Source: a virus. From it: a DNA stretch of 64,000 bases. This document shows, in pieces, positions 2,650-61,109 of this stretch (position 1 is its first letter; each line of letters starts with the position of its first letter). The position numbers and the translations under genes were made by a program. The notes beneath the pieces were generated by a model that saw only the letters and a list, made by a program, of their open reading frames with translations, searched no databases and had not been told where the DNA came from. The stretch lies in IMG/VR virus record IMGVR_UViG_3300003937_000082, positions 1 through 64,000 of that record; one strand, given 5' to 3'.

Positions 2650-4464
2650 ATGGCAAAGATCATTACAGAAAATTTTAAAGTAGAGACAACGAAAGAGATG
2701 TTCTCTACTTTTACTAGTAAGAACGAAACGATTGCGGCAAACTTTCTCACGGGTTTGAATACATATGTTGCCAATGAATCAGGCGTTTCTTTAACTAATG
2801 TCCAAAAGACTGAGATACAAGATATCGTAGAGGGTCAACTAGCTACAAATCTTCCTGTCGCATCTTATTATATCATGGGTTCTAGCATCGACAAAACAAC
2901 TGCAATTTCAAACACTCAAGTAGAGAAGCGTGAATTTCAACGAAGAGTTATCTTTGGCAACAAAGTAACAGAAGATAATATTCGCTACATGTTTTATAAG
3001 AACACTTGGACTAGTGGAACAGTCTATGATGACTTTGATGACACCCAAGATATATTAACAACTAATAATGTCGTGACTGTTTCGAATAGTGAAGGCGACT
3101 ACGAGGTGTTCAAGTGTCTTGAAAATAATAATGGTGGTACATCAACTCAACAACCTTCTTTCACTGGTATTGATGCTACTTCTTATGAGCAAATCTTTAC
3201 GGGAGATGGATACGTATGGAAGTATCTGTTTACTGTTGCCGCAGGTGATGATGTTATATTTGGAACTAGTGACAGCTTACCTCTACCTTATCCATCTTAC
3301 GGTAATGCTAATGTAATTGCTGCCGCTAAAGAAGATATCTCTCAGATTATTATTGAAAACACTCAGACTAATTTGTTCCAAGAATACGTATTTGGACCTA
3401 CGAATGGTCCTAGTACAGTATCTTTTCAGAGTGTTGAGCAATCGAAAACTTCACCAAATGTTGGCGAAATTAGAGTCAGAGCAACTCCCAAGTCTGGCTT
3501 CTCGTTATATACAGGCAACGATGCTTACAAGAACATGTACTTACTACAGACAAACAGCAATGGTGACCTGACTATATATGATGTCTTAAGTAGTTCAACT
3601 CCTAATAGTCCAAACTTAGACATCGATTTGAAGATCAATACGACTAACGGCAATAATTCTAATTACTTTAAGACTGATACATTTCAGCTTGTCCCTAAGA
3701 TTAATGTGACAAGAAGTACATCGACTGGCACTCCTTGTGTTGCATATGGCGTTATCGATGAATTCGGAACATTAAAAAAGGTTGCATTCAAGAATAAGGG
3801 AAGTGAATATAAATTTGCTACTGCTACTCTTGCATTACCTACTTCGATAGCTACTAACTATACGCCGTCGCAAGCCGCTACTCTAAGATGTGTGGTTTCA
3901 CCTACAGGCGGTCACGGATCAGATATGATTTCCGAGTTGGGAATGAGTAGACTATCAGTTATCACAAACTTTTCGGGAGAAGATGTAGCAATACCAGATG
4001 CGAACACATACACTAAAGTCGGACTGATAAAGAATCCTTTTTTTACAGATTCCACTTTCCCGACACAATTCGATAACAGAACTTCAATAGTAATTAGTGG
4101 CGATCACACAGCAACAGCAACAGCTGGACATTATGTTCAGCAAACAATTGCGTTAGATGACATTAATAGTGAAACAATCACAACGAGAATTCATGAAAGT
4201 GTTTACTCTGGAGGTAACACAACTATCTATCTGGTAGATTACTATGGAGACTTCAAGAACACATTTCAAACTGGCAATATTTTAGTAAAAGCTAACTTGG
4301 CTACGACAACGGCTAGTACGCTTGCTATAAATAATGCTAGTAATGATGTTACGTATGGTAAATATTCTCCGTACAGTGGACAAGTTCTACACTTTGTAGA
4401 CTTCGATCCCATTCAGAGACAGGCTACACGTAAAGAAAAAATTAAATTTATTTTCGATTTCTAG
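2650..4464 (+). CDS. 8: Baseplate wedge protein, T4 gp8-like
   Basis: 604 aa, much longer than T4 gp8 (334 aa). It shares gp8 landmarks in the right order: an N-terminal segment ending in a WTSGTVYDDFDD-type block, a segment like T4 'LVYRCLD' (YEVFKCLENN, about residue 151), then GDGYVWKYLF (about residues 185-194; T4 has GDGYVWEYLF). The very C-terminus, KEKIKFIFDF, resembles T4 gp8's EINILFTF ending. T4 gp8 forms part of the baseplate wedge that joins the hub and anchors fibre-bearing proteins. The extra length lies mainly between the YLF motif and the C-terminus, as beta-rich sequence. The start is an ATG with a weak upstream AAGG. The gene follows its left neighbour by 9 bp and precedes the DUF4815 gene by 16 bp, so the three are probably one transcript. 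Confidence 0.8.
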   Translation: MAKIITENFKVETTKEMFSTFTSKNETIAANFLTGLNTYVANESGVSLTNVQKTEIQDIVEGQLATNLPVASYYIMGSSIDKTTAISNTQVEKREFQRRVIFGNKVTEDNIRYMFYKNTWTSGTVYDDFDDTQDILTTNNVVTVSNSEGDYEVFKCLENNNGGTSTQQPSFTGIDATSYEQIFTGDGYVWKYLFTVAAGDDVIFGTSDSLPLPYPSYGNANVIAAAKEDISQIIIENTQTNLFQEYVFGPTNGPSTVSFQSVEQSKTSPNVGEIRVRATPKSGFSLYTGNDAYKNMYLLQTNSNGDLTIYDVLSSSTPNSPNLDIDLKINTTNGNNSNYFKTDTFQLVPKINVTRSTSTGTPCVAYGVIDEFGTLKKVAFKNKGSEYKFATATLALPTSIATNYTPSQAATLRCVVSPTGGHGSDMISELGMSRLSVITNFSGEDVAIPDANTYTKVGLIKNPFFTDSTFPTQFDNRTSIVISGDHTATATAGHYVQQTIALDDINSETITTRIHESVYSGGNTTIYLVDYYGDFKNTFQTGNILVKANLATTTASTLAINNASNDVTYGKYSPYSGQVLHFVDFDPIQRQATRKEKIKFIFDF

Positions 4465-25756: not shown

Positions 25757-26743
25757 ATGGCACAGGGATTTGTAATAGATTTAAACCTCATTGAAAGTGA
25801 CACAGGTGATTTAGATAGAGGTATCTTAGATAACTTAGGTGGTACTAATATTACCACAGACCTTCTCTTGTTCGATGGAAACTTTAGGTTTATATCTAAA
25901 CTATCTCCTAGTGACTACACATATGATGCAACTTCTGGAGTAATAACTGTTACTGGAGAAGGTAAAGTTGCCTTTTCAGATGGCACTAAAATATCTTTAA
26001 GCGATGCTCCTACTGTATTTGAGACTGAAGTTTTTGATTCAAATGGAATAGATAAATTTAAACTTAGAAATTTAAGTGGTCAAGCTGTATCTCCGTTAGA
26101 CTCTTCGAATGCTAAGAAAATTCTAAGAAGAAATGATGGAGTCAGCGCAGAAAATATATCGAATTTAAGCTCAAAAAGATTAGAAACTAATCCAGGAGCT
26201 TCGACCGGTATAAGTGATGATGACGGTGCTTCCGACTTATTCAATCAATATTCCGCATCAGAACAAATAGACTATATCAACACTCAACTAGCTTTATATT
26301 ATTATAAAAGAGATAGAGTTCCATTAACATTTGAAGACTCATCTTTTGATCAGAGAGTTAACTTTAGAGGCTCTGTGATGATTGTCGATAACGATGCGAC
26401 ATCTACTACACAGCCAAGCAATAGCACTCCGGGGCTTTTTATTGTAGATGCGTCAAATCCTGGCGGAGGTGCTACTAGAGCATTTAGTGATGCATCAAAT
26501 CCGTGGAGTGAAGTTGGCTCTGGAAATACAGCCGCTTTGGTTACGACAGAAGCAAACACCCAACCAAACACTTTAAGTATTAAGCCGAATACTACTGGAA
26601 CGAATCCTGCAAGTAGCAGTACTCCTAATCTACAAACTACCTCAACGCTTATCGTCTCACAAGCTAATGCCTTATCTGGCTTTAATTACAAACTTCCAGT
26701 TGAAATAAACGGCGAAAGGTTTTTCTTATTGCTTAAAGCTTAA
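25757..26743 (+). CDS. Virion structural protein, last plus-strand gene before the inverted gene
   Basis: 328 aa with a good ribosome binding site (AAGGAAAAG) 9 bp after the LRR gene. The N-terminus reads MAQGFVIDLNLIESDTGDLDRGIL, followed by beta-rich sequence (LSPSDYTYDATSGVITVTG) and a central EQIDYINTQLALYYYKRDRVP segment. The last ~100 residues are Ser/Thr/Asn-rich, ending NYKLPVEINGERFFLLLKA, a C-terminus similar in style to that of the minus-strand neighbour (ITYGSTTYKILLNT). No family recognised. Its stop codon shares TTAA (26740-26743) with the stop of the opposing gene. Confidence 0.7.
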   Translation: MAQGFVIDLNLIESDTGDLDRGILDNLGGTNITTDLLLFDGNFRFISKLSPSDYTYDATSGVITVTGEGKVAFSDGTKISLSDAPTVFETEVFDSNGIDKFKLRNLSGQAVSPLDSSNAKKILRRNDGVSAENISNLSSKRLETNPGASTGISDDDGASDLFNQYSASEQIDYINTQLALYYYKRDRVPLTFEDSSFDQRVNFRGSVMIVDNDATSTTQPSNSTPGLFIVDASNPGGGATRAFSDASNPWSEVGSGNTAALVTTEANTQPNTLSIKPNTTGTNPASSSTPNLQTTSTLIVSQANALSGFNYKLPVEINGERFFLLLKA

Positions 26744-26751
26744 GTATTAAG
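26739..26751. terminator. Possible weak bidirectional terminator hairpin between convergent genes
   Basis: CTTAA-GTA-TTAAG is a perfect 5-bp stem with a 3-nt loop exactly where the two convergent genes end, followed on the plus strand by AAAATTTT. The stem is AT-rich and short, so stability is low. Position rather than strength is the argument. Confidence 0.3.
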
Positions 26752-29220
26752 TAAAATTTTATAAGTTGTACTACCATAAGTTATTGGAAAGTACTCAGGC
26801 GAACTTGCCGGTACATTTGAAAGCGCCGTAATATTATTATTTGGAAGCTGAATCTTCAGACTATTAAAGGTTAACTTAGCAACAGTCAAGTTTCTATTAG
26901 ATTCAGGCGTAAGCAGTCCTACAGTCGTACCTTCAAATGGAGGAGCAGTGTTTAGGGGAATGACGCAGAATTCTTTATTAGCACTTCCTGGATTATTTGA
27001 ATTACCACCTATTGTTGATTTTATGAAAACTATAGTGCGAGCCTTAGGTATGGCGGCTGTAAGAGGTGCGGTTAATGTTATCCTTTTAGTACTGTTGTTT
27101 ATAGATTGCACTGTTGTGGTAGTACCAACTTTATTGTTGTTGAAGTCTGGTGATCCAGGTACAGCTCCCGTACCTCCTGCACTACCGCTACCGTAAAAGT
27201 GTACGTAATCTCCTACAGTCACTCCATCTGTTGTAGTTAACTCTATTTGGTTTTGACCGCTTCCCGCAGTAGCGTTCACTTCTCTTCCGTAAACTCCATT
27301 ACATTGAAGATATGATGACTTATCGTCTAGTCCTCTAGACGCATATACTGCACCAATCTGAACATTTCCGGTTTTGAAATTGCTACCTCCAGCATTGCTT
27401 AGATGGTCTTGAATAATGACGTTTCTAGGTCCAGTACCCGTTGCATCGAATACTCTTTTGACCTGTAGTCCGTCAGTTCCATCTGCTTTGATAGTCATTA
27501 TAAGCTGATCTGCAAACACTTTAGATGTCGGGTTAATGTTATATGGAGGTAAAGAGTATAGTGCTCCCTGACTACTGTTTCCAGAAGAATCGAGTCTGAA
27601 TAGACCAATAAGTCCAGTATTCTTGAAGAATACTGCTTCTGCTGTATTTGATATAGCCATAGAAGCATCTGAGTTAAGACTATCTTTAACATACGCAAAT
27701 TCATTACCATCTTCATCTGATCCACTGATCTCTAAAATCTGAAAGGCATACATGTTATTATTGCTCTTTTTGAATACCATCCAATCTCCCACACTTACTC
27801 CACTGAAGCTAGTGGCAGAAATCTTGCCAAAGTTATCTCGTACTTTTATAGTCTTTGTAGATACTGTTGTTGATGTAGAACTCGACATTCCTACAACTTT
27901 ATCGTTCAATAGTTCTGGAGGATCTATTATAAGAGATATTGTATCAAGAACAGTTAACTTAGATGTAGATTTCTGATTCAAGGCACTTGCTTTATTGTCT
28001 TCGAAATACTTGTACGTGTATGGGCCGAATACTTGACTTCTGTTATACGTCTTGTAATAATCTGAAAATGGTGCACGTTCACTATTATCATTAGTTTCTC
28101 TAAATGTTTTTTCTCTGTAAGCACTACCATTGCCTGGATCTGGATACCAAAGCGTGTAACGCACCCTTAATCTATTGCCCCTTTTCTGAGCAGTAAATTT
28201 TATTGGAGATGTGACTTCATCTTCACCAGGTTTGAACTTAAGCGTTTGAGTTGCGGGGTTTCCAGATATGGCACTTGACGTTTGAACTGTCATTGTTTCT
28301 GCTTCTGGATCCACTGATGCGATTTGATATGTAGTGGAATTCGATACAAATGACATTCCTTCGCAAACAGATTTTTTATTAACAGAAGATCCACTATAGT
28401 CTATCGTTACTACTCCAGCCGTCGGACCAGAGTATGTAAGACCGTTTAGTGGGAAGCTACTTTTGTATTGATCATTAGAAGCTGGAGTGGCATACACAGA
28501 CTTGATCGTTGTCCAATTGTTTTCACTACCATCATCTACCGTATCTTCCTCTATGATAAATAACCCTGTAGAGCCCCAATCTTGTTCGAAATTACTCGCA
28601 AGATAACCAGTCCATTGTATAAGACCGTATGTGTTTCTCATCTCTGGATGGAGCTTTGAATTAAAGGCGAAGACTCCGTTATTCCAAAAGTCCAATGGAC
28701 CAATGATAGGAGTGAAGTCTCCGTCTGCATATGATGTCCACAGTTGACTTGATGACAAGCCACCTGTCGTTGAAGCAGTACCTGAATTACCCGTGATGGC
28801 GCCAGTAGGATTTGGTTTAATTCTATCGCTACCGACAAAGAAACAATTTAATCCGTCACCGCCATTAATCCAAGGAGGATTACCTAAAACAGATTTAAAA
28901 TTGCTTATATTATCTTGAATAGTCACAAGAGGCTCAACAACTGTGTTTTGTCCTTGTGTATTAGTGAACGATACTACAGTGCCGTTTAAGTTTGCGAGAT
29001 CAGTTGATTGTCCATCTTCGTTTGTGAAGTCAGACAGTCCAGTGTTTCTTAATCCAATAAGTGGACTAATATCTCGGACAGTAAATCCAGAGAATTGATT
29101 GTTTTCGTCTAGGGCAGTAGAGTTATCGTCCAGTACGTTGGCTAAAGATTGAACTGGACTATCTAGGTCTGCTAGATTCTTGTCAGCACGAAGTCCGAAT
29201 TTGATGTACTTTGATGTCAT
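26740..29220 (-). CDS. Large virion structural protein, sole minus-strand gene
   Basis: 826 aa, read right to left. The minus-strand start has GGATTTAAA just upstream, and a late promoter copy sits 35 bp further up (29262-29255). The N-terminus reads MTSKYIKFGLRADKNLADLD, followed by conserved-looking blocks (LVTIQDNISNFKSVLGNPPW, then INGGDGLNCFFVGSDRI, then GLIQWTGYLASNFEQDWGST and GLFIIEEDTVDDGSENNW). This resembles structural proteins of T4-like cyanophages as I remember them, not checked. It is beta-rich with no enzyme motif. Coding style matches its neighbours, so the orientation looks like a local inversion rather than foreign DNA. It converges on 25757-26743 with a 4-bp stop overlap and diverges from 29293. 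Confidence 0.75.
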   Translation of the reverse strand: MTSKYIKFGLRADKNLADLDSPVQSLANVLDDNSTALDENNQFSGFTVRDISPLIGLRNTGLSDFTNEDGQSTDLANLNGTVVSFTNTQGQNTVVEPLVTIQDNISNFKSVLGNPPWINGGDGLNCFFVGSDRIKPNPTGAITGNSGTASTTGGLSSSQLWTSYADGDFTPIIGPLDFWNNGVFAFNSKLHPEMRNTYGLIQWTGYLASNFEQDWGSTGLFIIEEDTVDDGSENNWTTIKSVYATPASNDQYKSSFPLNGLTYSGPTAGVVTIDYSGSSVNKKSVCEGMSFVSNSTTYQIASVDPEAETMTVQTSSAISGNPATQTLKFKPGEDEVTSPIKFTAQKRGNRLRVRYTLWYPDPGNGSAYREKTFRETNDNSERAPFSDYYKTYNRSQVFGPYTYKYFEDNKASALNQKSTSKLTVLDTISLIIDPPELLNDKVVGMSSSTSTTVSTKTIKVRDNFGKISATSFSGVSVGDWMVFKKSNNNMYAFQILEISGSDEDGNEFAYVKDSLNSDASMAISNTAEAVFFKNTGLIGLFRLDSSGNSSQGALYSLPPYNINPTSKVFADQLIMTIKADGTDGLQVKRVFDATGTGPRNVIIQDHLSNAGGSNFKTGNVQIGAVYASRGLDDKSSYLQCNGVYGREVNATAGSGQNQIELTTTDGVTVGDYVHFYGSGSAGGTGAVPGSPDFNNNKVGTTTTVQSINNSTKRITLTAPLTAAIPKARTIVFIKSTIGGNSNNPGSANKEFCVIPLNTAPPFEGTTVGLLTPESNRNLTVAKLTFNSLKIQLPNNNITALSNVPASSPEYFPITYGSTTYKILLNT

Positions 29221-29254
29221 TTTAAATCCAATAGGTTGAGGGTTCTGTTCTTAT

Positions 29255-29266
29255 TATTTATAAATA
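29255..29266. promoter_or_regulatory. Palindromic bidirectional T4-type late promoter
   Basis: TATTTATAAATA is a perfect 12-bp palindrome containing TATAAATA on the plus strand (29259-29266) and on the minus strand (29262-29255). It lies in the 72-bp gap between divergent genes. The plus copy ends 27 bp before the ATG at 29293; the minus copy ends 34 bp before the minus-strand start at 29220. Both distances match the other late promoters here. Confidence 0.75.
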
Positions 29267-29292
29267 CATGTAGCATAGATTAGGGAAAAAAC

Positions 29293-29625
29293 ATGGCAGT
29301 TAAAGCAAATATTGTAATAGACCAAGGTACAGATTTCTCAGCGTTGATTGATGTAGAAACGGCTACAGATGCCGTATTCAATCTTACTGGATTTACTGTT
29401 GCCGCTCAAATGAGAAAAACGTATGCTTCGGCAACTGCAACGGACTTTGGCTGTTCGCATAACGGAGCACTCGGTCAAATTTCTATCACTCTAAGTAGTA
29501 GTATAACCAATAACTTATCTCCTGGTAGATACTTATATGATATAGAAATTACCTCACCTGGCGGCTCTAAATCACGTGTTGTACAAGGAACAGCGACAGT
29601 AACAGCCGGCATAACAAGGACATAA
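29293..29625 (+). CDS. Small virion structural protein (beta-sandwich type)
   Basis: 110 aa, strong ribosome binding site (AGGGAAAAAAC before ATG), first gene of the plus-strand unit from the bidirectional promoter. The N-terminus MAVKANIVIDQGTDFSALID, a middle LTGFTVAAQMRK and a C-terminal SPGRYLYDIEITSPGGSKSR belong to a small structural protein type common in marine T4-like phages. It probably folds as an Ig-like beta-sandwich: alternating strands, no Cys pairs needed. Its role is likely decoration or connection at the base of the fibres that follow. No signal peptide. Confidence 0.75.
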   Translation: MAVKANIVIDQGTDFSALIDVETATDAVFNLTGFTVAAQMRKTYASATATDFGCSHNGALGQISITLSSSITNNLSPGRYLYDIEITSPGGSKSRVVQGTATVTAGITRT

Positions 29626-29627
29626 AG

Positions 29628-29846
29628 ATGGCAAACATCAAGGCAAAACTTACACCAAATCAAAACTTTATGGTAACTAATTACCAGATTAATGCTGCCT
29701 CTATCAGGCTTGGCGACCTCTTTGACGTTGACGCTAGTAATCAAACAGACGGAGCAGTTATTCTCTATAACAGTACGTCAGCAAAGTGGGAATCGACCAC
29801 TCAAATGGATAATATAAATACAATTATAAACGGAGGCAATTTCTAA
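29628..29846 (+). CDS. Small virion-associated protein
   Basis: 72 aa, 2 bp after the previous stop, and its own stop abuts the next ATG. The segment DVDASNQTDGAVILYNSTSA followed by KWESTTQMDNI is a short motif often found in phage fibre attachment regions ('dGavl.yn....kW'). It probably connects the previous beta-sandwich protein and the fibre that follows; it could also be a split N-terminal part of the fibre. Function unknown. The AAGG ribosome binding site and exact packing support it as a real gene. Confidence 0.7.
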   Translation: MANIKAKLTPNQNFMVTNYQINAASIRLGDLFDVDASNQTDGAVILYNSTSAKWESTTQMDNINTIINGGNF

Positions 29847-60110: not shown

Positions 60111-61109
60111 GTGGCTAAGAATTACTATTTCGAAAACTACGAGAATTCGATGGAGCAAACTCTTATCGATGATTTGGTAGTGGAGTCGATTAAGATATAC
60201 GGAATAGACACTATGTATATGCCTAGAACTATGGGCGCAAAAGATGATATTTTAAACGAAGACGATCTTCCTGAATATAATGATGCACACCAAGTTGAGA
60301 TGTATGTCAAGAATGTAGATGGTTTTGAGGGAGAAGGAGACTTCTTATCTAAATTCGGTTTACAGATTCGTGACTCGATAACATTAACTATAGCGATGCG
60401 TACATACGAGTTAGAAGTTGGAATTAACAGTGAAATTAACAGACCTCGTGAAGGCGATGTCATCTATCTGCCTCTTAATCAAAAGATGTTTGTAGTTCAG
60501 CACGTAGAGCATGAATCAATTTTTTACCAAATGGGATCTTTGCAGACATATGATCTTAGATGTGAATTATATGAGTATAGTGGAGAACGATTTAACACTG
60601 GACTTCCGTATATCGATGATAGGTTCGAATCTGATAATCTCTTCATTGATAGTGATGGTACAACGTTTACTGTAGAAGTTCGAAGCAATGTGTTTCACAT
60701 GCAGGCAACAGATGAAAGAGGCGATCTTATAAGCACTCCTAAACTTGAAGCGAGAGTTGATGAGAAAATTATATTCGACCAATCACACACTTCTAACACT
60801 AATAAGCCGTTAAGGATATATACAACTACATCTCCAAATAGCGGTAATCCTGTTACTGCGGGTCTTGAAGTCACTGGCACACCAGGCTCAGATGGAGCTA
60901 AAGTCACTTGGACTCCAGCTACAACTGGTACATATTACTATATTAATACAACCACAATTGGAATGGGCGAAACAATTACAGTAGAAGCATCTAAGCTACA
61001 GAGTGTGGAAAGTTATGACGATATTGCGGATAACACAACTATAGAATCATTTGCCGACAACATTGTAGATTTTAGTCAGAGCAATCCGTTTGGGGAGGAT
61101 AACTTCTAA
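60111..61109 (+). CDS. 14: Neck protein gp14, GTG start, with extra C-terminal beta-sandwich domain
   Basis: 332 aa (T4 gp14 is 256). GTG at 60111 is chosen because it preserves the family N-terminus (MAKNYYFENYENSMEQTLID, then KIYGIDTMYMPR); the first internal ATG would remove part of it. VKNVDGFEGEGDFLSKFGLQ and RPREGDVIYLPLNQKMFVV are also typical of gp14. Residues about 185-278 (TFTVEVRSNVFHMQATD ... IIFDQSHTSNTNKPLR ... TTGTYYYIN) form an added beta-sandwich. The 'FDQS..SN..KPL' and terminal 'YYY' features resemble a cupredoxin/Ig-like domain of cyanophage proteins. The first base of the next ATG is the last base of this stop (TAATG). Confidence 0.9.
   Translation: MAKNYYFENYENSMEQTLIDDLVVESIKIYGIDTMYMPRTMGAKDDILNEDDLPEYNDAHQVEMYVKNVDGFEGEGDFLSKFGLQIRDSITLTIAMRTYELEVGINSEINRPREGDVIYLPLNQKMFVVQHVEHESIFYQMGSLQTYDLRCELYEYSGERFNTGLPYIDDRFESDNLFIDSDGTTFTVEVRSNVFHMQATDERGDLISTPKLEARVDEKIIFDQSHTSNTNKPLRIYTTTSPNSGNPVTAGLEVTGTPGSDGAKVTWTPATTGTYYYINTTTIGMGETITVEASKLQSVESYDDIADNTTIESFADNIVDFSQSNPFGEDNF

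Follow-up and report, generated by a model that had tools for sequence, protein, structure and literature searches.

A perfect 12-bp palindrome, TATTTATAAATA, lies between two divergent genes of a virus whose tail, neck, and terminase genes are T4-type, and we consider it very probably a bidirectional late promoter of the T4 (gp55) type, as an earlier note on this DNA had proposed. The octamers on its two strands stand at the spacing of the other late promoters nearby, they are conserved where the two genes are divergent and not where genes are in tandem, and both have changed together in a lineage whose late octamer appears to be a different one. The window analyzed here is a stretch of 64,000 nucleotides from a 64,062-base IMG/VR record whose terminase is closest, among isolates, to those of the Sinorhizobium phages phiN3 and phiM12 (57% identity).

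The palindrome and its two genes

The palindrome consists, exactly as the earlier note had read it, of two outward-facing TATAAATA octamers that have 4 bp (TATA) in common, and the octamer is exact on both strands, without a -35 element. Sharing of this kind is possible since TATAAATA begins with TATA, a half that is identical to its reverse complement. A gp55-type late sigma factor on the host RNA polymerase would read only this 8-bp element, and because T4 late octamers span -13 to -6 (PMC1524935), the start sites are predicted at the positions given in Table 1, 23 bp apart. Polymerase bound in the plus orientation would produce the tail-fibre-assembly mRNA, and polymerase bound in the minus orientation the mRNA of the 826-aa protein, in both cases presumably late in infection. 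Both complexes would require the same base pairs, so that only one could form at a time. At bidirectional promoters of E. coli, opposing polymerases cannot occupy the site together, and the competition matters only at high activity (PMC12825309). Mutual exclusion may be used here, as the earlier note suggested, for splitting expression between the two genes.

The 12-mer occurs once in the entire record. Markov models of order 0-4 predict 0.014-0.037 copies by chance per window and 1.3e-5 to 3.5e-5 copies in the 72-bp gap, between the divergent open reading frames (ORFs), where it is found. The distance from octamer to ATG is 34 nt on the minus strand (ATG at 29220) and 26 nt on the plus strand (ATG at 29293); for the other intergenic octamers of the window this distance is 26-43 nt, which bears out the claim that the leaders on both sides resemble those of other late promoters. 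None of those other gene-preceding octamers has TATT in front of it. In total, the window holds 12 copies of TATAAATA against a chance mean of 7.2, which is only a mild excess; the signal is the placement of the octamer just ahead of genes rather than the total number. Three copies, at window positions 4326, 11854, and 21504, fall within genes with no start codon nearby downstream, and these are probably due to chance. A search of the window for Rfam families found none.

Table 1. Features at and around the palindrome (window coordinates; a dot marks a feature without strand)
Feature	Position	Strand	Basis
12-bp palindrome TATTTATAAATA	29255..29266	.	sequence; also found among divergent relatives (18 protein clusters)
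late octamer TATAAATA for a predicted start at 29249 (spans -13 to -6)	29255..29262	-	sequence; position rule of PMC1524935
late octamer TATAAATA for a predicted start at 29272 (spans -13 to -6)	29259..29266	+	sequence
next one-way late octamer, 26 nt ahead of a 690-aa structural gene (29847)	29813..29820	+	sequence
826-aa protein	26740..29220	-	beta-rich predicted model; presumed virion structural
110-aa protein, phrog_1084 / phrog_3304 (L-shaped tail fibre assembly)	29293..29625	+	family match
72-aa protein; its gene probably shares a transcript with the 110-aa gene	29628..29846	+	ORF

The earlier note had placed the palindrome between two divergent structural genes. Their divergence stands, and both octamers lie shortly upstream of genes of the late or structural kind; the plus gene belongs to a tail-fibre-assembly family, and the minus gene is presumed to be of virion structural type from its gene context. 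The 110-aa plus protein also has a weak LtfC-like match, under Pfam's cut-off. For the 826-aa minus protein no match was found in PHROGs or Pfam, nor by tblastn in 50,697 isolate phage records, and a relative of it gave one Pfam match, again below the cut-off. Its predicted model is beta-rich and of moderate confidence (mean pLDDT 71, pTM 0.55); a fold search with this model gave no hit in the PDB at E < 0.001, and such matches as it returned, to viral proteins, had low TM scores. Members of the family carry an N-terminal KYxKFGLRADKNL motif and are encoded on dozens of metagenomic phage contigs and in zero isolate records.

At its other end, the minus gene meets a convergent plus-strand gene (25757-26743), and the two stop codons overlap by 4 bp at window positions 26740-26743. 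In 32 relatives checked (L085-L154) the same two stops range from a 15-bp overlap to a 14-bp gap, with the 4-bp overlap commonest. Since the stops overlap or adjoin and leave no space for a terminator, transcripts of the minus gene probably run on antisense to their neighbor.

A match to the late sigma factor gp55 (phrog_234) is found in the long palindrome-bearing relatives G001 and G002 (E 2e-62). The 64-kb record itself has none, and it is probably a fragment.

Conservation with divergent gene order

Relatives were collected with two starting points, the plus gene and a minus-gene alignment, and about 150 further loci were read; for the cluster counts, the minus-gene family was clustered at 60% identity. 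As the sequences in which the 12-mer is found were picked for having it, column conservation within the 12-mer is circular, and we have therefore built the case on the comparison of divergent with tandem gene order.

The earlier note had named loss of the palindrome from close relatives with the same gene order as grounds for abandoning its proposal. The proposal came through this check: all divergent relatives with the same two neighbors carry either the 12-mer or the 14-mer TATTTATATAAATA, the latter in two lineages. The minus proteins of these relatives are down to 23-30% identical with that of the window, a distance at which unconstrained DNA in the gap would have diverged. By cluster, the divergent loci comprise 18 with the exact 12-mer and 2 with the 14-mer; in 4 others the outward octamers are complete and separated by 1, 3, 3, and 6 bp. 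One divergent cluster (L133/L158) departs from this, its two octamers lying well apart. Tandem members of the minus-gene family, in contrast, have a single one-way octamer or none, and one of them (L110) is a palindrome-free member of a cluster in which other members carry the palindrome. Outward elements with shared bases are thus kept in divergent order and absent from tandem order (Fisher p 2e-4 to 2e-3 at the cluster level, varying with the inclusion of distant gaps).

The tandem TATAAATA promoters in these loci number 50 distinct ones, of which 1 is palindromic. This locus (L010, positions 3775-4000) keeps the palindrome but has lost the minus gene, and its upstream gene stands in tandem. 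The spacer next to the palindrome is still similar to that of the relatives, which suggests that the minus gene was lost recently; a palindrome can evidently persist for a time past its second use.

A further line of evidence comes from G003, a 152-kb genome (loci L322 and L323) that has 3 copies of TATAAATA against 13 of GATAAATA. Of the latter, 12 are on one strand, typically 18-23 nt ahead of start codons with a ribosome site, and the match of this phage to phrog_234 (gp55) is diverged (E 9e-23). From these counts, the late octamer of the G003 lineage appears to be GATAAATA instead of TATAAATA. Its divergent gap reads TATTTATCAAACCTGATAAATA, that is, two outward GATAAATA octamers with 6 bp between them, 19 and 23 nt from the genes. 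A GATAAATA pair cannot have 4 bp in common because GATA is not its own reverse complement. Both halves match the late octamer of the phage itself, as two working late promoters would predict and an operator would not.

We also asked how far the palindrome recurs elsewhere in IMG/VR. A pattern of palindrome plus any ATG did not separate late promoters from chance; the scan was therefore run with a palindromic octamer, a ribosome site, and an ORF, scoring whether an ORF of 100 aa or more lay divergently on the opposite side, against TTATTATAAATA as a composition-matched control. With T4 loci and doubly counted sites removed, and among the matches listed, 22 of 84 palindromes had such a divergent ORF as opposed to 2 of 83 controls (p = 5e-6), a share possibly inflated up to twofold since palindromes can be found from either side. 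The divergent pairs with the 12-mer include gp4-like/gp13-like (L260) and gp4-like/tail-tube cap genes (L356); other pairs join a gp13-like gene with other genes (L269, L385) or involve a helicase gene (L326). These loci, from metagenomic phages and in part with T4-type late structural genes, support a wider recurrence of the palindrome.

Other readings of the symmetry

It is worthwhile to consider whether the plus octamer alone could be the promoter, with the TATT before it there by chance and the minus gene transcribed from elsewhere. Elsewhere in the window a one-way octamer is enough for the late genes, and L010 carries the palindrome without a divergent gene. We nevertheless regard this as very improbable: TATT, or an equivalent second octamer, is present in all of the divergent relatives with the same neighbors despite the distance between their proteins, it is missing from 49 of 50 tandem promoters, and the spaced variants retain two full octamers. 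Moreover, sigma-70-like sites occur by the minus gene no more often than shuffling of the sequence would produce.

The perfect dyad symmetry would also suit an operator, at which a dimeric DNA-binding protein controls one or both genes. DsbA could be a model for such a protein, for it binds AT-rich sites over T4 late promoters, and its sites overlap two of them (PMC2988020). Dimer binding would not readily account for half-sites at variable spacing (overall lengths of 12, 14, 17, 19, and 22 bp) with every octamer intact, for the match of each octamer to the late consensus of its own phage, or for the absence of the symmetry from tandem late promoters, and this makes an operator very improbable. 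We hold it most improbable of all that the palindrome serves the housekeeping sigma factor of the host, instead of gp55, as a bidirectional promoter with a shared -10 element. TATAAA is similar to a -10 element, and bidirectional promoters are a common bacterial type in which 10, 18, or 23 bp separate the divergent starts (PMC12825309), the last being the distance predicted here; against this, both octamers keep all 8 bases, the structural genes of the window have this octamer in front of them too, and the joint change to GATAAATA parallels the other late promoters of that phage. The near-absence of palindromes at tandem promoters and the shift of both octamers in the GATAAATA lineage are both as predicted for a T4-type late promoter firing in both directions, the reading of the earlier note, which is supported.

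Known counterparts and what the layout means

The arrangement is already known in kind. The T4 genome contains TATTTATAAATA a single time, in the 50 bp that separate its divergent late baseplate genes 26 and 51. Scarlato et al. reportedly described overlapping promoters in the T4 26/51 gene cluster in 1989 (Virology). In GenBank M77695, overlapping TATA boxes are annotated for these two genes, and Gruidl et al. 1991 is cited in PMC2988022 as a study of the T4 25/26/uvsY transcription units. The 12-mer of the 26/51 gap is also present in AV114, Kpn6N, VR20, and ZZ1 and is conserved over five genera of Straboviridae, including Mosigvirus, Jiaodavirus, Gaprivervirus, and Zedzedvirus. In RB49 and 44RR the sequence in this gap is a degenerate form of it, and EC-F2, which has gene 51 in tandem, lacks it at 26/51.

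At the T4 and window loci alike, the identical 12-mer occupies a short gap flanked by late genes that diverge. They differ in that the T4 genes encode baseplate hub proteins, as opposed to a tail-fibre-assembly gene and an 826-aa structural-type gene, and in that T4 has a second minus-strand box (GATAAATA) and shorter leaders. Descent of the window's locus from 26/51 was considered and rejected, as its flanking genes are not homologous to gp26 and gp51: these belong to phrog_150, which neither flanking gene matches. Given that the two pairs are of different families, the device most likely arose at least twice.

Two other systems deserve mention. The bidirectional sigma-70 promoters of bacteria (Warman, Grainger) likewise have one near-symmetric element read both ways, with a 23-bp start spacing among the preferred distances and exclusion between polymerases (PMC12825309). 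They depend on another sigma factor, whereas the element here is 8 bp without a -35, and T4 late promoters are activated by the sliding clamp. In Pelagibacter phage Mosig, the 14-bp TATTTATATAAATA stands at 60971-60984 (L302:3472-3485) between divergent metabolic-type operons; it resembles the palindrome in its outward octamers and divergent genes, and differs in the overlap, which is 2 bp, and in its genes, which are Asp_Arg_Hydrox-domain and nitroreductase-like.

What the present analysis adds to the T4 precedent is strong conservation, together with repeated recruitment at several late gene pairs that are unrelated to one another. Late promoters that diverge and overlap, familiar from a single T4 locus, prove to be a recurrent T4-type layout, with 26/51, gp4/gp13, gp4/tail-tube cap, gp13 with others, and the pair in the window as its loci.

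This layout may also bear on how a direction is chosen. Activation of T4 late promoters depends on the polarity of the clamp, and when the nick is moved to the other strand, the direction switches. Both directions of the palindrome have the same octamer, so that sliding-clamp polarity could make the choice. It is conceivable, although we think it rather unlikely, that the strand of the clamp-loading end sets the direction and that the promoter follows the direction of replication, switching the output of virion genes as it does so. A palindromic promoter is well suited to this question, as the strength of the octamer is no longer a variable: it offers a clean natural test of whether clamp polarity, and hence replication direction, selects the transcribed strand. 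If that were true, the repeated evolution of this layout in T4-type phages would reflect replication-direction switching.
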